From Anthocerotibacter panamensis C109 (GTDB lineage Bacteria > Cyanobacteriota > Cyanobacteriia > Gloeobacterales > Anthocerotibacteraceae), in NCBI RefSeq assembly GCF_018389385.1, contig NZ_CP062698.1, forward strand, positions 2,917,501-2,981,500: a stretch of DNA of 64,000 nt, read 5' to 3'. The position numbers were made by a program, and so were the translations under genes. The number at the start of each line of letters is the position of its first letter. The stretch's first letter is position 1. Positions 53,516 to 63,163 of the stretch are shown here, in pieces. Below the pieces are notes generated by a model, which made no database searches, was not told where the DNA came from, and was given only the letters and a program-made list of their open reading frames with translations.

Positions 53516-53541
53516 AGGCTTCCTCCTGCCCGGTGAACGCT

Positions 53542-54654
53542 ATGCGAATCTTACATATCCTCAATGACCTCCATAACTTGGGCAACGGCATTGTCAACCA
53601 CGTAGTCGATCTCGCCATTGCCCAGCAGGCGAGCGGTCATCGGGTCACTGTCCTCTCCTCAGGAGGGGAACACGGGGCACTCCTGGCTGCCCACGGAGTC
53701 ACCCTCACCACCCTGCTGATGAACCGCACGCTCTGGCTCCAGCCGCTGCACATCGTTCAGGCCCTCCAGACCATCAACCACCAGATCGCACACTTCGATA
53801 TCGTCCACGCCCATATGATGAGCGGGTTACTCCTGGCTTATTCCGGCTGCCTGCGCCAAGGCATTCCCCTGATCGCCAGTATGCACAACTCCTGGCAGCA
53901 CCATGCCCGACTCATGCGCCTTGCGGACCATCTGATCGCCGGGAGTCAAGCAGTAGCCCAACAACTGTTTACCTGGGGCGTGAAGCCAGACCAAGTATCG
54001 GTGGTCGCTAATGGGACAGGTGGAACCTACCGCTATCAGGCGCTCCCCGCTGCGCCCGTCAGCGCCCTACCCGCAGGGCGCAGGGTCTTGACGGTGGCGG
54101 GGCTTTTTGACCGCAAGGGGATTCACATCCTGCTAGAGGCGGTTCCTCTCGTCGCTGCGGTCGTCCCTCAGGTGCGCTTCTGTATCGTTGGGGACGGCCC
54201 GGACCGCGCCCGCTATCAGCAAAAGGTCCAGGAAGCGGGGATTGGGCTGTGGGTCACCTTCTTGGGATTTCGCCCGCGCTTTGACAATCTGCTGCCCTTG
54301 GCGGAACTGCTCGTACACCCCCCGCTTGCCGACCCCGCGCCCTTGGTCATCCCCGAGACGCTGGCGGCAGGAATTCCGATTGTGGGGACATCCGTGGGGG
54401 GTATCCCCGAAGCGCTCGCCTTTGGGCAAGCCGGTCTACTCGTCCCCCCCGGCAATCCTCAAGCGCTCGCCAGCGCCGTACTCCAAGTCCTGACGGACCC
54501 GACTTTAGCTGCGACCCTCCAGCTACGTAGTCAAGAACGAGCCGCCTGCTATACCACCCAAGCCATGGCCGCCCAAACCGTGGCGGTTTACGAGAAGGTG
54601 CTGACCCGTGCTGTCTACGTCCCCCCGGCCCGACCTGCGCCCAAGAGCACTTGA
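53542..54654 (+). CDS. GT4-family glycosyltransferase with altered EX7E
   Basis: 370 aa from ATG 53542. ILHILNDLHNLGNGIVNHVV at the N-terminus; the paralogue at 58514 begins almost identically. In the donor half the EX7E block reads DPAPLVIPE, while the paralogue has EPFGLVLTE. The first Glu is Asp, and the Phe-Gly before the helix is replaced by Ala-Pro. Activity may be reduced or the specificity changed. Remaining motifs (SVGGIPEALAFGQAGLLV) are normal. Confidence 0.9.
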   Translation: MRILHILNDLHNLGNGIVNHVVDLAIAQQASGHRVTVLSSGGEHGALLAAHGVTLTTLLMNRTLWLQPLHIVQALQTINHQIAHFDIVHAHMMSGLLLAYSGCLRQGIPLIASMHNSWQHHARLMRLADHLIAGSQAVAQQLFTWGVKPDQVSVVANGTGGTYRYQALPAAPVSALPAGRRVLTVAGLFDRKGIHILLEAVPLVAAVVPQVRFCIVGDGPDRARYQQKVQEAGIGLWVTFLGFRPRFDNLLPLAELLVHPPLADPAPLVIPETLAAGIPIVGTSVGGIPEALAFGQAGLLVPPGNPQALASAVLQVLTDPTLAATLQLRSQERAACYTTQAMAAQTVAVYEKVLTRAVYVPPARPAPKST

Positions 54655-54683: not shown

Positions 54684-55820
54684 ATGCTGCGCCATGCAAC
54701 TGTCAGTTTATTTCTTCCTACCCTGGAGGGCGGCGGGGCCGAGCGGGCCATGCTGCATCTGGCCGAAGGTTTTACAGCGTGTGGCCTCAAGACCGACTTG
54801 ATCCTCGCTCAGGCCAAAGGGAAGTATCTCTCCATGGTGCCCGATGGAATACGGGTGATTGACCTACAGGCCCACGCCCCGGTCTTGCTCCGTAAAACCC
54901 TGGCCCTCCAGCGTTATCTACGGCGCGAGCGACCGGCGGTTTTGCTGACCACCCTCGATATCGTCAACGCAGCAGCCTGGGCACGTCGTATGGCCGGGGT
55001 CCCCACGCGGGTCGTCATGGTCGTACAGACGAATCTCTCCGCCCAATTCCGGGATTACACCGATGGCACCGGCTGGTTGCGGCCCCAACTGGTGAGGTGG
55101 TTTTACCCTTGGGCCGACCAGATCATCACGGCCTCTCAGGGAGTCGCAGAGGACCTAGCACAGATCTCCGGGCTACCCCTAGGCGAGATGCGGGTCATCT
55201 ACAACCCAGTGGTGACCCCCCGCTTTCTACAGATGGTGCAGCAGCCCGTACCGCACCCCTGGTTTGCTGCGGGGCAACCCCCGGTCATTCTGGGGGTGGG
55301 ACGGCTCGTCCGCCAAAAAGATTTCCCGACGCTGATCCGCAGTTTTGCCCAGATCCGACCACAGGTTCCTGCCCGTCTGGTGATCCTAGGCGAAGGGGAG
55401 GAGCGCGCCAACCTGGAGTTTTTGGTCCGCCAACTCGGTCTGACGGACGCGGTGGACCTGCCGGGATTTGTGGAAAACCCCTATGCCTATATGGCCCAGG
55501 CGTCGGTCTTCGCGCTCTCCTCGACCCACGAGGGCTTTGGCAACGTCGTAGCGGAAGCGCTAGGGGCAGGGACGGCGGTCGTCTCCACCGACTGCCCCAG
55601 TGGACCGGCAGAAATCCTAGGTTGGGGCCGCTACGGAACCTTAACGCCCGTCGGGGACGCCAGAGCGTTGGCCCAAGGGATTGTGCGGACCCTACAAAAA
55701 CCCCCAGGATCTGAAGGATTGCGCCAGCGTGCCCGAGCTTTTTCGCTGATGGCAATTGTCGAACAATACTGCGAGGTCCTCGAAAAACTCATGCAACAGC
55801 CCAAAGCAGGTTGGCGATGA
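54684..55820 (+). CDS. GT4-family glycosyltransferase (GGGAER type)
   Basis: 378 aa, ATG start. VSLFLPTLEGGGAERAMLHL at the acceptor side and EGFGNVVAEALGAGTAVVST (EX7E) with DCPSGPAEIL at the donor side, the pattern of GalNAc/GlcNAc-type GT4 enzymes (WbpH/PglJ-like), though specificity is inference. The stop overlaps the glycoside-hydrolase-like gene as ATGA. Confidence 0.94.
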   Translation: MLRHATVSLFLPTLEGGGAERAMLHLAEGFTACGLKTDLILAQAKGKYLSMVPDGIRVIDLQAHAPVLLRKTLALQRYLRRERPAVLLTTLDIVNAAAWARRMAGVPTRVVMVVQTNLSAQFRDYTDGTGWLRPQLVRWFYPWADQIITASQGVAEDLAQISGLPLGEMRVIYNPVVTPRFLQMVQQPVPHPWFAAGQPPVILGVGRLVRQKDFPTLIRSFAQIRPQVPARLVILGEGEERANLEFLVRQLGLTDAVDLPGFVENPYAYMAQASVFALSSTHEGFGNVVAEALGAGTAVVSTDCPSGPAEILGWGRYGTLTPVGDARALAQGIVRTLQKPPGSEGLRQRARAFSLMAIVEQYCEVLEKLMQQPKAGWR

Positions 55821-57085
55821 AGGGGCCTCTTCGCGTAGCCCTGGCGCTTCTGGGGCTCACAGCAGGTCTGCTAGGCAACGGATTACGCGCCCAGCCCGAG
55901 CAAGCCAGGAGTGCCGACAGCTTTGTGGATTCCGTCGGTGTGGCGGTGCACCTCCGGTTTTTGGATACTGCCTACGGCAACTACTACGGTCTCATCAAGC
56001 CCAAGCTACAAGAGTTGGGCGTGCGCCATATCCGCGATGGCGGAGACGACGCGCAGTTCTTCCAAAAGCTCAATGACCTGGCAGGTGTGGGCATCCGCTC
56101 CTTGTTGGTGATGGACCCACGCGACGGCATTGACCCGGCGCGGGCGGTGGCGATTGCCAAGACCGTAGCTCCTTCCATAGAAGCGGTCGAGCAGCCCAAC
56201 GAATATGACTTTTCCGGTGACCCCAACTGGGCAGCTACGCTCAAAAACTACGATGCCAGCCTCTGGACAGCATTCAAGTCAGACCCAGCGGTAGCCAGCC
56301 TACCGATGATTGGTACAGCCTTCGTCAGTTTTGATGCCACCAACACTGTCGGCGACCTCAGCCCCTATGTTGACTCCTCGAATATGCACCCGCTGCGTTA
56401 TTTCCCTCCCGATAACGACCAAAACAATGCCGCCCCCAACAATATCGCCGTCGAGGCTGCTTTTCGGGCTAAACCCTTCGGCAACAAGCCGATGTGGGCT
56501 TCGGAGACGAGCTACGACGCGGGCTGTCCCGGCTTGGGCAATGGCATCACCGAAGCCGCTCAAGGCAAGTACGTCCCGCGCTTCTTGTTGCAGTGGTTTA
56601 ACACCGGGCTGGTGCGTACTTATATTTATGAATTGATGGACGAGAAGCCGGACAACTGCACCAACGCCGAGCTGCACTTTGGGATCTTGCGCAACGATGG
56701 TTCCCCCAAGCCCGCCTTCACCGCCGTCAAAAACTTGCTTGCGCTCCTGCGCGATCCCGGCGTGCCCTTCAATCCCGGATCGCTGGACTACACCCTGTCG
56801 GGCAACACTACCAACTTGCGCCATACCCTGCTCCAAAAGCGAGACAGGAGCTTTTACTTAATCCTGTGGCAGGCAGCCAAAAGCTCATATTGGCCGGGGG
56901 AAGCCCGCTCGGGACAGGATATCTACGTCGCGCCCACCCAAGTCACCCTCACCCTCAACACCAAGATCACTCAGGCGACCACCTACCTGCCCAACACCTC
57001 CACCAATCCCACGGGGCAATACACCAAGCCGACGCAGATCAACCTGAGTGTGCCGGACTACCCACTGGTTCTAGCCCTTTTTTGA
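55817..57085 (+). CDS. secreted glycoside-hydrolase-like protein (clan GH-A type barrel)
   Basis: 422 aa from ATG 55817. The signal peptide covers about residues 1-24 (LRVALALLGLTAGLLGNGLR). A barrel-type catalytic domain follows. EQPNEYD has the Asn-Glu pair (N128, E129) of clan GH-A acid/base residues, and MWASETSYD (E230) matches a nucleophile-type Glu. The C-terminal beta-domain ends near 422. It is nearly identical in its first 120 mature residues to the protein at 59611-61692 but lacks the CARDB tail. May trim or transfer the secreted polymer outside the inner membrane. Confidence 0.85.
   Translation: MKGPLRVALALLGLTAGLLGNGLRAQPEQARSADSFVDSVGVAVHLRFLDTAYGNYYGLIKPKLQELGVRHIRDGGDDAQFFQKLNDLAGVGIRSLLVMDPRDGIDPARAVAIAKTVAPSIEAVEQPNEYDFSGDPNWAATLKNYDASLWTAFKSDPAVASLPMIGTAFVSFDATNTVGDLSPYVDSSNMHPLRYFPPDNDQNNAAPNNIAVEAAFRAKPFGNKPMWASETSYDAGCPGLGNGITEAAQGKYVPRFLLQWFNTGLVRTYIYELMDEKPDNCTNAELHFGILRNDGSPKPAFTAVKNLLALLRDPGVPFNPGSLDYTLSGNTTNLRHTLLQKRDRSFYLILWQAAKSSYWPGEARSGQDIYVAPTQVTLTLNTKITQATTYLPNTSTNPTGQYTKPTQINLSVPDYPLVLALF
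55972..56202. repeat. 231-bp perfect inverted repeat, left arm
   Basis: Base-for-base identical, in reverse complement, to 61256-61486. Both arms lie in the catalytic part of the glycoside-hydrolase-like genes. The segment between the arms is about 5.05 kb and contains the flippase and a glycosyltransferase. Confidence 0.95.
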
Positions 57086-57118
57086 TCACCCTGAATGGAT
57101 GCGTCGGGAGGACCCTGG

Positions 57119-58471
57119 ATGAGCGCTAACCGTTTCCGGTGGTCGCACTATGTGGGCACGAGTACCCGCTGGCTGCTTGGGGGGAAGAGTGGTCCGGCAG
57201 CCACCGCACAGACTGTACTCACAAAAGTCCTCGTCTTGGGGCTCAATGTGGCGACCGGCGTCATTACCGCCCGAGAGCTTGGCCCGGATGGACGGGGGTC
57301 TCAAGCTGCTATGTTGCTCTGGCCGCAGTTTCTCGCCTTTGCCATGACCTTGGGACTCCCCTCCGCTACTCTCTATAACCTCAGGCGTCACCCCGAGGAC
57401 CGCTCCAGCCTCTTCGCGGCCCTACTTATCCTCGGCATGCTCCTAGGTTGTACGGCGACGGCGACGGGCGTGCTTTTTATCCCCCTATGGTTAGCTAACT
57501 ACCCGCCAGATATCATTCACACCGCGCAGTGGTTTATGGTGGCAGCCCCCGTCAGCCTGCTGGCACTGACGTTTACCTCGGCATTAGAGGCGCTCGATGC
57601 CTTCCACCTCTCCAATCTGGAGCGCTTCCTACAACCGCTATTGACCCTGTGTGGGCTGGTCGGTCTGCTCTTAACGGGGACGCTCACCCCCTTTACCTCC
57701 GCCCTTGCCTACTTGATGCCGATCCTGCCGCTCTTTTTGTGGCGGCTGGTTTATCTCTGGATACGGTTGCGCCCACGCTGGGTAAAACTAAAAACCTCCT
57801 TCCAGCGGCTGGTGAGCTATGGGGTGCGCTCCTACGGCATCGACCTTGCCGGTACGCTGGCGGCTCAGATCGATCAGGTATTGGTAGTAGGTCTGCTCAA
57901 CCCTTACCACATGGGGATGTATGCCGTGGCGCTGAGCCTGTCACGGGTCCTCAATATCTTCCAAGCCGCGATAGCCACCGTCCTCTTCCCCCGACTCGCC
58001 GCCCGTCCGCCCGCTGAAGTGGTGGCGGTCACCGGGCAAGCTGTGCGGGTGAGCACCGCCTTGAGCCTACTGGTAGCCGGGAGTGTTGTGCTGGTCGGGC
58101 CGGTAGTTTTGCATCTGCTGTATGGGCCTGAGTACGCGGAGGCTGTGGCGGTATTTCGCATTTTGGTGGTGGAAGTCGTGCTGGGCGGTGCGGTGCTGGT
58201 CCTGGCTCAGACGTTTATGGCCCTGGGTAAACCCGGTGCTGTCACCATCTGGCAAACGGTCGGGCTGGGGTTGAGTGTGCCCTTGCTGCTGCTACTTATC
58301 CCCGCCTTTGGGCTGGTGGGGGCGGGTCTGGCGCTCTTGTGCTCGACGGGCGCACGGTTGCTTTTGATGCTGCTGAGCTACCCGCTGGTCCTAAAAATCC
58401 CCCCACCCAGCCTGGTGCTTACCCGTGATGACCTCCGGCTACTCACCCGGCTGCTGCCCCATCAGCCCTGA
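57119..58471 (+). CDS. Wzx-type lipid-linked oligosaccharide flippase
   Basis: 450 aa from ATG 57119, chosen for its ideal ribosome-binding site (GGGAGGA, seven bases away). The MATE/MOP superfamily pattern of twelve to fourteen membrane segments is present, starting near KVLVLGLNVATGVITARELG, with GPDGRGSQAAMLLWPQFLAF and the central basic FQRLVSYGVRSYGIDLAGTL. It should translocate repeat units across the inner membrane to the Wzy polymerase. It is the only flippase gene in the window. Confidence 0.92.
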   Translation: MSANRFRWSHYVGTSTRWLLGGKSGPAATAQTVLTKVLVLGLNVATGVITARELGPDGRGSQAAMLLWPQFLAFAMTLGLPSATLYNLRRHPEDRSSLFAALLILGMLLGCTATATGVLFIPLWLANYPPDIIHTAQWFMVAAPVSLLALTFTSALEALDAFHLSNLERFLQPLLTLCGLVGLLLTGTLTPFTSALAYLMPILPLFLWRLVYLWIRLRPRWVKLKTSFQRLVSYGVRSYGIDLAGTLAAQIDQVLVVGLLNPYHMGMYAVALSLSRVLNIFQAAIATVLFPRLAARPPAEVVAVTGQAVRVSTALSLLVAGSVVLVGPVVLHLLYGPEYAEAVAVFRILVVEVVLGGAVLVLAQTFMALGKPGAVTIWQTVGLGLSVPLLLLLIPAFGLVGAGLALLCSTGARLLLMLLSYPLVLKIPPPSLVLTRDDLRLLTRLLPHQP

Positions 58472-58513
58472 GCGTTGAGACGACCCTGCGAGCAAGCCTT
58501 AGAGGACTTCACC

Positions 58514-59614
58514 ATGCGCATTTTGCATATCCTCAATGACCTGCGCAACCTGGGTAACGGCATTGTCAATCATGTCGTGGACCTCAGCATCGAGGAGCAA
58601 GCCCTAGGCCATCAGGTCACCATTCTCTCCTCAGGCGGGGAGTACGAGGCGCTTCTGGCTCAGCAAGGAGCTACCCTCAGCCCCTTGGTGATGAACCGCA
58701 GCCTATGGTTAAATCCAGGGCGGGTGCGCCGAGCCCTCCAACAGGTCAGCCGCCAGATCCGGGATTTTGATCTGGTTCACTGTCATATGGTGAGTGGCCT
58801 TTTGCTTGCCTATCCCGCCTGTCGGTGGCATGGCATTCCTTTAATAGCGACGGTCCACAATTCTTGGCAGACCCATGCCCGCTTGATGGGGCTTGCGCAT
58901 CAGATCATCGCTGTCAGTCAGGCAGTAGCGCGGGAGGTCCAGACTTGGGGCGTCGCCTCAGACCGGGTGGCTGTAGTCAAAAATGGCACCGTCGGTACCC
59001 TGCGCTACCGGTCTACCCCCGCCGCCGGGACCCCGGCACGCCCCCCCGGTGTCCGCCGAGTCTTGACCATTGCCGGACTCTTTGAGCGTAAGGGCATTCA
59101 TATCCTCTTGGAGGCTGTGCCTCGGGTCATCGCTCGGATACCGCAGGCGCAGTTTTGTCTGGCGGGGGATGGCCCGGACCGCTTGCGTTTTGAAGCGATG
59201 GTCCGGGACTTGGGTATTGGTCGCTGGGTGTCGTTTTGGGGCTTTCAGCCACGGGTGGACCAACTGCTGCTCACCGTAGACCTGCTGGTCCATCCTGCGC
59301 TGCAAGAGCCTTTCGGATTGGTGCTGACCGAGACGATGGCGGCCGGAGTCCCCATCGTGGCTACGGCGGTAGATGGCATTCCCGAAGTGCTCGCAGGCGG
59401 TAAGGCGGGGCTTTTGGTCCCGCCGCGCGACCCCAAAGCTTTGGCGGAGGGCATCCTCACCCTCTTAGGGAATCCCGCCCTGTGTACAGAATTTTCCCAG
59501 CGCGGACGGGCGGAAGCCCTGCACTATGCCACCGGGCGGATGGCTGCTGAAACCCTGACAGTCTATGAACGAGCCTTAGCCCGCGCCAAGCGCCCGCTCA
59601 AGGTCGCAGGCTAG
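58514..59614 (+). CDS. GT4-family glycosyltransferase
   Basis: 366 aa from ATG 58514. ILHILNDLRNLGNGIVNHVV and LERKGIHILLEAVP as in the paralogue at 53542-54654, but with an intact EX7E (EPFGLVLTETMAAGVPIVAT). The stop codon overlaps the convergent gene's stop at CTAG (59611-59614). No terminator lies between them. Confidence 0.94.
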   Translation: MRILHILNDLRNLGNGIVNHVVDLSIEEQALGHQVTILSSGGEYEALLAQQGATLSPLVMNRSLWLNPGRVRRALQQVSRQIRDFDLVHCHMVSGLLLAYPACRWHGIPLIATVHNSWQTHARLMGLAHQIIAVSQAVAREVQTWGVASDRVAVVKNGTVGTLRYRSTPAAGTPARPPGVRRVLTIAGLFERKGIHILLEAVPRVIARIPQAQFCLAGDGPDRLRFEAMVRDLGIGRWVSFWGFQPRVDQLLLTVDLLVHPALQEPFGLVLTETMAAGVPIVATAVDGIPEVLAGGKAGLLVPPRDPKALAEGILTLLGNPALCTEFSQRGRAEALHYATGRMAAETLTVYERALARAKRPLKVAG

Positions 59615-61692
59615 GGCTTGCTCGTCAGGGTCTGGTTGAGGGTGTTGTTGGTCTCGTTGCTTTCGGGGATGCGGTTGACATCATCGACCCAGGCTTCGAT
59701 ATTGTGGGTGCCCGCTACAGCGCTCCAGGGGAAGTTGGCGGTGAGGGTCACCGAAGCGCCAGGAGCGAGGCTGGCGGTGTTGGTGTCCGAGTAGGTCAAG
59801 AGTGCGCCATTGGCGGTACTGCGGTCCCGAAAAGCGACCCCGATGATTGTCCCGGCAGGAGTGGCAATGGTGCCCTGGTTCTTGACTACTGCCGTGAAGG
59901 TGACTGGGCTACCGGGGGTGAGGCTGGCAGCTTGGTACCCGGTGCTGGTGACCACGAGGTCTGGTTTCCCGGACGGTGGGGGGGTGTTACTGACTGTGAG
60001 GGTCTGGTTGAGGGTGTTGTTGGTCTCGTTGCTTTCGGGGATGCGGTTGACATCATCGACCCAGGCTTCGACATTGTGGGTGCCCAAGGTGGCACTCCAG
60101 GGGAAGTTGGCGGTGAGGGTCACCGAAGCACCAGGAGCGAGGCTGGCGGTGTTGGTGTCCGAGTAGGTCAAGAGTGCGCCATTGGCGGTACTGCGGTCCC
60201 GAAAAGCGACCCCGATGATTGTCCCGGCAGGGGTAGCCGTGGCACCTTGGTTCTTGACTACTGCCGTGAAGGTGACTGGGCTACCGGGGGTGAGGCTGGC
60301 AGCTTGGTACCCGGTGCTGGAGATCAAGAGGTCTGGCTGCCCCCCAGACGCAGGTGGAGGCGGGGCGGAGGAAGGGCTAAGTTTAACCACCAAAGGGTAG
60401 TCCGGCACGTTCAGGTTGATCTGCGTCGGGTTGGTGAATTGCCCGGTGGAATTGGTGGAGGTGTTGGGCAGGTAGGTGGTCGCCTGAGTGATGCGCGTAG
60501 CCAGGTTCAGGGTGACTTGGGTGGGCGCGACGTAGATATCCTGTCCCGAGCGGGCTTCCCCCGGCCAATATGAGCTTTTGGCTGCCTGCCACAGGATTAA
60601 GTAAAAGCTCCCGTCACTTTTCTGGAGCAGGGTATGGCGCAGGTTGGTAGTGTTGCCCGACAGGGTGTAGTCCAGAGAACCCGGTGTGAACTTGGCTCCC
60701 GGTTCTTTTAACAGGGCGAGCAGGTTCTTGACGGCAGTGAAGGCGGGCTTGGGGGAACCATCGTTGTGCAAGATCCCGTAGTGGTACTCCGGTTCCGTGC
60801 AGTTGTCCGGCTTCTCGTCGATAAACTCATAAATATAGGTGCGCACCAGCCCCGTATTGAACCATTGGAGGTAGAAGCGCGGGACGTACTTGCCTTGAGC
60901 GGCTTCGGTGATGCCGGTACCTACGCCGGGGCAACCTGCGTCATAGCCCGTCTCCGAAGCCCACATCGGCTTGTTGCCGAAGGGTTTAGCCCGAAAAGCA
61001 GTCTCGACGGCGATATTGTTGGGGGCGGCATTGTTTTGGTCGTTATCGGGAGGGAAATAACGCAGCGGGTGCATATTCGAGAAGTCAACATAGGGGCTGA
61101 GGTCGCCGACAGTGTTGGTGGCATCAAAAGTGACGAAGGCTGTGCCAATCATCGGTAGGTTGGCTACCGCCGGGTCTGACTTGAACGCTGCTCGCAGGCT
61201 GGCATCGTAGTTTTTGAGGGTGGTGCGCCAGTTGGAGTCGCCGGAGATATCGTACTCGTTGGGCTGCTCGACCGCTTCTATGGAAGGAGCTACGGTCTTG
61301 GCAATCGCCACCGCCCGCGCCGGGTCAATGCCGTCGCGTGGGTCCATCACCAACAAGGAGCGGATGCCCACACCTGCCAGGTCATTGAGCTTTTGGAAGA
61401 ACTGCGCGTCGTCTCCGCCATCGCGGATATGGCGCACGCCCAACTCTTGTAGCTTGGGCTTGATGAGACCGTAGTAGTTGCCGTAGACGGTGTCCGTATA
61501 GCGCAAGTGCACCGCCACACCGACGGAATCCACAAAGCTGTCGGCACTCCTGGCTCGCTCGGGGGCTGCCTGTGCCATCGGATTCATGAGGCCCAGCAGA
61601 CCCATAGCCATCAGCGAAAGCCAAATCTTCGACCCACTGTGACTCCCTCGCTCCGACTTATCTCGGTGGCCCACTCGATGAAAAATCTGCAT
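59611..61692 (-). CDS. secreted glycoside-hydrolase-like protein with two CARDB domains
   Basis: 693 aa, ATG at 61692, signal peptide about residues 20-42 (IWLSLMAMGLLGLMNPMAQA). The catalytic domain is like that at 55817-57085: EQPNEYDISGDSNW and MWASETGYDAGCPG hold the GH-A type Glu residues. After a Pro-rich spacer (SPSSAPPPPASGG), two nearly identical CARDB adhesion-type domains of 124 residues follow (about 445-690; TPGSPVTFTAVVKNQG, EAWVDDVNRIPESNETNNT). The tail could anchor the enzyme to extracellular polymer. Opposite in orientation to the operon it follows. Confidence 0.88.
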   Translation of the reverse strand: MQIFHRVGHRDKSERGSHSGSKIWLSLMAMGLLGLMNPMAQAAPERARSADSFVDSVGVAVHLRYTDTVYGNYYGLIKPKLQELGVRHIRDGGDDAQFFQKLNDLAGVGIRSLLVMDPRDGIDPARAVAIAKTVAPSIEAVEQPNEYDISGDSNWRTTLKNYDASLRAAFKSDPAVANLPMIGTAFVTFDATNTVGDLSPYVDFSNMHPLRYFPPDNDQNNAAPNNIAVETAFRAKPFGNKPMWASETGYDAGCPGVGTGITEAAQGKYVPRFYLQWFNTGLVRTYIYEFIDEKPDNCTEPEYHYGILHNDGSPKPAFTAVKNLLALLKEPGAKFTPGSLDYTLSGNTTNLRHTLLQKSDGSFYLILWQAAKSSYWPGEARSGQDIYVAPTQVTLNLATRITQATTYLPNTSTNSTGQFTNPTQINLNVPDYPLVVKLSPSSAPPPPASGGQPDLLISSTGYQAASLTPGSPVTFTAVVKNQGATATPAGTIIGVAFRDRSTANGALLTYSDTNTASLAPGASVTLTANFPWSATLGTHNVEAWVDDVNRIPESNETNNTLNQTLTVSNTPPPSGKPDLVVTSTGYQAASLTPGSPVTFTAVVKNQGTIATPAGTIIGVAFRDRSTANGALLTYSDTNTASLAPGASVTLTANFPWSAVAGTHNIEAWVDDVNRIPESNETNNTLNQTLTSKP
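59629..60372. repeat. two 372-bp tandem repeats encoding CARDB domains
   Basis: Units 59629-60000 and 60001-60372 are nearly identical at nucleotide level (for example the whole stretch encoding GTIIGVAFRDRSTANGALLT). 372 is a multiple of three, so the number of domains could change by recombination without frame loss. Identity this high suggests a recent duplication or gene conversion. Confidence 0.9.
61256..61486. repeat. 231-bp perfect inverted repeat, right arm
   Basis: Reverse complement of 55972-56202 without mismatch. Outside the arms the two genes fall to lower identity, so the arm borders are sharp. Confidence 0.95.
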
Positions 61693-62107
61693 AAAGTCCC
61701 CTGCTCTAAACGTTTTTCCTTAGGTAGGTTTACATGTTTTTCTTAAGTCCAAATTCGTAGAACTACGGAAATACAGTAAGTAACCATGAAAATAAATCTG
61801 TGGGGCTCAAGGCACGTTCCCATCTGGGTTTTGGGCTTATAGCTTGTCGCCTCTTATCTATCAATAAGAGTAGAGTCTGCTGGTATTACCGTATGTGCTA
61901 CTAAAAAATATCCAGTTTTTTCGGTTTCCTAAAAAACTTTTTTGTGCTAAAGCAAAGACTTGACATATAACGGGAATTGCTGATGCTAAAAGTTTTAAAG
62001 TGTGCTCAGACTGCTTATTTAATTTTTATACTTATTCTTTCTTTGGTATGTCTATTTTATCACTTTACTTATTTCATGGCTTCAGTCTCCTCTCACCAAA
62101 TTTCTAG
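61693..62107. other. AT-rich intergenic region with a 7-bp hairpin
   Basis: 415 bp, strongly AT-rich. Contains the inverted repeat CTCTTAT/ATAAGAG with a six-base loop (61851-61870) and an interrupted palindrome CGTAG-AA-CTACG near 61757. TTGACA at 61960-61965 is followed 17 bp later by ATGCTA, a poor -10, so a promoter for the transposase is uncertain. No terminal inverted repeats of the insertion element could be paired by eye. No ORF recognised. Confidence 0.5.
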
Positions 62108-63163
62108 GTGGATCGATTGTACCAACCCATCCTCGATGCGAATGTTGTGAACGAATACTGCTCTATTTATCAGGATATCTTTAGCGATATCCGTAACTAC
62201 GAACACTTCAAATATCTCCATCTGGGGCTCATCTCAGGGATACCCAAAAAGTCCCTCCCGGCGATTGCTGAAACGGTAGGTTTGGGCAATGGTCAATCGT
62301 TACATCACTTTTTGGTCAACACGCCCCTGAATCTCAAGGACCTCCGCCACCAACGCCTAGTGCTGACACGCCAAATCCTTGACCAAAAGCCGTTTTTTCT
62401 CTGTATTGACGAAACCGGAGACAAGAAAAAAGGCGATACCACGGATTATGTTGCCCTCCAGCATGTCCCTAACCTCAACCGTAATGAGCGCAGTCTGGTG
62501 TCCCTCAATAGTTATGCTCTGTGGGATCAATTAGCTTTTCCATTACTCTTTAATGTATTCAAGCCACGCAGTCGCCTAAAAGCTGCTGATATCTATAAAA
62601 CCAAGCCAGGACTAGCCATTGAGATGATCGAAGAATTACAGGAGCAAGATTTTCCTTTTAAGTTGGTCTTGATCAACAGTCTCTATAGCGAAACAAGTAC
62701 CTTGATCCAAGCTTTTAACGAATTAAATTTAGACTTTATTATCGCGGCTCGACTCGACTATGAAGTATGGTTGCGCCCCGGTCCCCGTGTGACGTTTCGG
62801 CGTTGGCAGAATCTGGATATAACCCAGGAAAATACAGGTGAGATCTATAGCATTCGTGAAATGTTGTTCAGGCGTCGCTCTGATATCCGTTACTACCAGA
62901 TCGCTCCTCGCACGAGAGATCCTGAAGAACAGTCCTCCTGGCATATTATTACCAACCTACAAGGTAATTTCTTGCGGACGGCTGGCAACACTTTTGCTAT
63001 AAAAGAACTCATCGAATTTGCCTTTAAGCGCAAACGAGATGACTTAGGTTGGTCTGACCATCGGCTGACGGATTACCACAGCATCGAGCGCTGGTGGGAG
63101 ATCGTCTATAGCGCGTACTTGATGGTGAACCAACAGACTTTAACGCTGCCACCGACGTCTTAG
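62108..63163 (+). CDS. IS701-family transposase, C-terminally short and with a catalytic Asp replaced
   Basis: 351 aa from a GTG start. The DDE transposase layout is visible: FKYLHLGLISGIPKKSLPAI, GLGNGQSLHHFL, CIDETGDKKKGDTTDYVALQ (first Asp, D101), and HSIERWWEIVYSAYLMV near the C-terminus. The second catalytic Asp of the family, in V.ADSLYGE, reads VLINSLYSE (Asn190). Family members continue roughly 50-70 residues beyond the SAYLMV motif, while this one stops after 12. It is probably inactive. Its AT-rich composition differs from its neighbours. Confidence 0.85.
   Translation: MDRLYQPILDANVVNEYCSIYQDIFSDIRNYEHFKYLHLGLISGIPKKSLPAIAETVGLGNGQSLHHFLVNTPLNLKDLRHQRLVLTRQILDQKPFFLCIDETGDKKKGDTTDYVALQHVPNLNRNERSLVSLNSYALWDQLAFPLLFNVFKPRSRLKAADIYKTKPGLAIEMIEELQEQDFPFKLVLINSLYSETSTLIQAFNELNLDFIIAARLDYEVWLRPGPRVTFRRWQNLDITQENTGEIYSIREMLFRRRSDIRYYQIAPRTRDPEEQSSWHIITNLQGNFLRTAGNTFAIKELIEFAFKRKRDDLGWSDHRLTDYHSIERWWEIVYSAYLMVNQQTLTLPPTS

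Follow-up and report, generated by a model that had tools for sequence, protein, structure and literature searches.

Two inverted paralogous genes of an exopolysaccharide cluster, GH1 and GH2, carry a tract of 231 identical base pairs in the 64,000-nt stretch of DNA analyzed here (hereafter the window), and this tract very probably results from recent gene conversion between the two genes, which would recombine homologously on occasion, with inversion of the intervening DNA as an unregulated by-product. Most probably, this is concerted evolution of the ordinary kind, acting on inverted paralogs. As such, it provides a clear small case of concerted evolution by conversion between inverted duplicates in a deep-branching cyanobacterial order, and illustrates that a perfect inverted repeat does not by itself make a switch.

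An inverted gene pair with identical and diverged blocks

The genes of the cluster are arranged as follows:

54684-55820, plus strand: GT-B, glycosyltransferase of family 4, located upstream of GH1 and overlapping it
55811-57085, plus strand: GH1, predicted PslG-like glycoside hydrolase, listed length 424 aa, N-terminus resembling a leader
57095-58471, plus strand: Wzx-type polysaccharide flippase between the arms (Polysacc_synt_3, Polysacc_synt)
58475-59614, plus strand: GT-A', glycosyltransferase of family 4 and paralog of GT-A (53533-54654)
59611-61692, minus strand: GH2, 693 aa, paralog of GH1 in inverted orientation, two C-terminal CARDB domains
61693-62107, no strand: GH2 upstream region, AT-rich, 415 bp, 35% GC

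The likely start of GH1 is the ATG at 55817, which overlaps the stop of GT-B (ATGA); with this start, GT-B, GH1 and the flippase, located 9 bases past GH1, form a tight plus-strand series. GT-A' and GH2 are convergent, tail to tail, their stop codons overlapping in CTAG. Region 61693-62107 is the likely candidate site of a promoter of GH2 itself; no canonical promoter site was found in it, and matches in promoter and terminator scans were no more frequent than in shuffled sequence.

An earlier note had described 55972-56202 as the exact reverse complement of 61256-61486. Direct comparison bore this out, both copies being present in the complete contig, and the length of the match is far beyond chance. 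The description was incomplete in that the repeat lies within much longer inverted arms of 1,175 nt and 90% identity, separated by 3.3 kb and coinciding with the mature hydrolase domain of GH1 and GH2:

55895-57069, plus strand: left arm of the paralogous pair, 90% identity between the arms
60389-61563, minus strand: right paralogous arm, inverted partner of the left arm
55972-56202, plus strand: 231-bp identical, putatively converted tract in GH1, exact match to the GH2 tract
61256-61486, minus strand: 231-bp identical, putatively converted tract in GH2, exact match to the GH1 tract
56847-56949, plus strand: second tract without differences, 103 bp, partner at 60509-60611
56329-56509, plus strand: third, apparently homogenised patch, with 2 mismatches in 181 bp, partner at 60949-61129

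The longest exact tract within the arms is the one of 231 nt, followed by tracts of 103, 79, 53 and 49 nt, and no other inverted repeat of at least 60 nt was found in the 64-kb window. The 231-bp repeat is thus the longest identical stretch of a diverged inverted gene pair, and not a discrete recombination site.

Identity at silent sites and probable gene conversion

In a codon alignment, the 231-bp tract comprises 76 whole codons with no difference between GH1 and GH2, whereas 108 of the 338 codons outside it differ. A run of 76 identical codons was never reached in 20,000 shufflings of all codons, and it was reached in only 2 of 20,000 when shuffling was restricted to codons for the same amino acid, a procedure that removes the protein constraint. 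Identity across the tract extends to silent sites. In other blocks, as many as 14 of 20 codons differ; the 20-codon blocks just past the tract contain 4-5 silent changes, and blocks elsewhere contain up to 9. Silent changes are also lacking in blocks near 56318-56497 and 56858-56917, and such a patchwork of identical and diverged blocks fits repeated conversion, for which it is the expected outcome.

Strong selection on an essential stretch might have held the copies identical with no recombination involved, and the tract does include the conserved motif RHIRDG and, at its end, the NE catalytic motif. This explanation hardly deserves credence, since silent sites are identical in the tract, and outside it the two genes do show silent differences at codons that encode the same residue. 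An artefact of assembly or polishing, in which mis-assigned short reads made diverged paralogs identical over 231 bp, was also considered. Short-read polishing may mis-assign reads between sequences about 90% alike, which makes the error conceivable for arms of this identity. It is nevertheless very improbable, given that differences (112 of 1,179 columns of the arm alignment) are sharply retained on both sides of the tract, and that the genome is a single contig of 4,187,797 bp rated 99.99% complete.

Identity that includes silent sites, confined to a tract inside otherwise diverged paralogs, is what gene conversion leaves, and gene conversion is a usual fate of such duplicate genes. A past crossover, that is, an inversion, could have left the same pattern; from this one sequence we infer conversion rather than crossover, together with its rate and its presumed dependence on RecA. 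In the mechanism proposed, the inverted hydrolase genes would recombine homologously now and then; the 231-bp identity would be the trace of a recent event converting one copy onto the other, and the shorter identical patches those of further conversion events. Crossovers within the 231-bp tract would occasionally cause inversion of some 5 kb, as an unregulated side effect.

A well-documented parallel is provided by tufA and tufB of Salmonella, inverted paralogs of 1,185 nt between which conversion and, in some cases, inversion take place (PMC5485169, PMC8262849). Inversion accompanied almost half of the conversions selected at one site; a second account puts the share at a quarter at most, and at 8% (5/59) for test cassettes (PMC5485169, PMC8262849). 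Both systems consist of inverted paralogs of about 1.2 kb homogenised by recombination (here, as proposed), with inversion as a side product. By contrast, 762 kb of DNA separate the tuf genes, which show 12 nucleotide differences, whereas the hydrolase genes are separated by 3.3 kb, are about 10% diverged and appear homogenised only in patches. Because 8% to nearly half of such events in Salmonella invert, rare inversion as a recombination by-product is, by analogy, plausible here.

Consequences of inversion and the question of a switch

A crossover in the tract would invert 56203-61255, about 5 kb including the flippase and one glycosyltransferase, as the earlier note had proposed from an arm geometry that proved correct. 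Its claim that the C-terminal halves would be swapped, moving the CARDB tail to the other copy, also held: scripted joining of the halves yielded GH1N-GH2C with the CARDB domains (678 aa) and GH2N-GH1C (439 aa), both in frame. The note also had the flippase and the glycosyltransferase flipped out of the operon direction. Both are inside the inverting segment, but its geometry would not put the flippase out of use, as the minus-strand order after inversion would be GH2N-GH1C, flippase and GT-A', preserving the order hydrolase-flippase-glycosyltransferase. Since this order would be kept behind the GH2 upstream region, the flippase would be moved from the long plus-strand series rather than stranded. 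Furthermore, the hydrolase domains being 87% identical, the swap would chiefly exchange the leader, the upstream region and the tail.

These consequences bear on the proposal that the locus is a phase-variation switch, in which reversible homologous inversion of 56203-61255 would change the promoter serving the flippase and GT-A' and move the CARDB tail. Perfect inverted arms and in-frame chimeras in a surface-polysaccharide cluster speak for it, as does the fact that long inverted paralogs invert reversibly elsewhere, for instance at hsdMS of Staphylococcus aureus (PMC6778178). At that locus, inversion goes along with small-colony-variant switching, both orientations were found in cultures, a phenotype ensued and inversion was reported to be recA-independent (PMC6778178). 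The likeness lies in inverted paralogous coding genes acting as recombination arms; however, orientations, phenotype and recA independence are reported for hsdMS, whereas the hydrolase pair is known from one sequence.

Several observations count against the switch. No invertase gene lies nearby: although the genome contains matches to resolvase and integrase families, none of them is in or near the window, and the closest integrase-like match, about 230 kb away, falls below the family cut-off. Short dedicated sites are likewise lacking, the arms being 1,175 nt long and made of coding genes with diverged blocks, and the promoter scan revealed no promoter switch. The limited scope of the exchange, restricted mainly to leader, upstream region and tail, points in the same direction. 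Finally, twelve further loci in which the hydrolase is matched more than once showed no near-identical inverted pair and no long exact inverted tract between copies; an apparent long exact repeat in locus L092 was a masked run of N. The phase-variation switch of the earlier note is thus not supported, and we consider it unlikely, as we do, to the same degree, an active reversible 5-kb inversion that would swap the leader and upstream region and the CARDB tail and re-wire flippase expression. If inversion were common, the locus would offer a testable case of polysaccharide variation.

Next to GH2, an IS701-family transposase gene (62108-63163) is present in single copy, with 46% GC beside a cluster of 61% GC; no role for it in inversion was found.

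The hydrolase family and its relatives

Over 414 aligned residues, GH1 shares 87% identity with the hydrolase portion of GH2. Neither matches any Pfam or NCBIfam hydrolase family, the GH17 match in Pfam being sub-threshold only. A profile built from eight relatives matched PslG, a hydrolase belonging to the Psl exopolysaccharide cluster of Pseudomonas, with E = 4.9e-6 over the part containing the conserved TE residue. Two glutamates, one in an NE and the other in a TE motif (E131 and E232 of GH1), are kept in GH2 and in the aligned relatives. On these grounds, GH1 and GH2 are predicted to be PslG-like hydrolases of clan GH-A. They share with PslG the profile match and the exopolysaccharide-cluster setting, and differ from it in their low identity and in the two extra CARDB domains of GH2. 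As to the barrel fold of that clan, an AlphaFold model computed from the two window sequences reached a pLDDT of 35, too low for the model to be of use.

Scanning genome contigs with GH1 alone returned no relative, and the eight-sequence profile returned 60 loci; of the 390 genomes of the class, 53 contain the family. Among the nine genomes of the order, the GH1/GH2 pair occurs only in this one, the sole representative of its genus among them: the hydrolase is absent from the eight others searched, its closest relatives elsewhere share roughly 50% identity, and no close match to the flippase was found in the order members searched. A tail of CARDB length is absent in the 27 relatives inspected, and the CARDB tail therefore looks like an addition to GH2. 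Its two CARDB domains are direct repeats (59624-59923 and 59996-60295, 372 nt apart, 94% identity) that, as judged from their sequences, are the product of recent tandem duplication or conversion.

At many cyanobacterial loci the hydrolase gene adjoins glycosyltransferase genes related to those of the window, usually on the same strand. Within the window, the paralogous genes GT-A and GT-A' have the same orientation and flank GT-B, GH1 and the flippase, with 75% identity over 195 nt (53542-53736 versus 58514-58708). A Wzy-like protein, several glycosyltransferases and a PslG-like hydrolase recur together in Leptolyngbya-type and other cyanobacteria (loci L045-L104), and some of these clusters (L045, L054, L068) contain the PslG-like hydrolase twice. 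Tandem hydrolase copies are found in Defluviicoccus (locus L091, 8190-13296), where they show 80-88% DNA identity and share a 95-bp exact direct match, so that conversion is possible there too.
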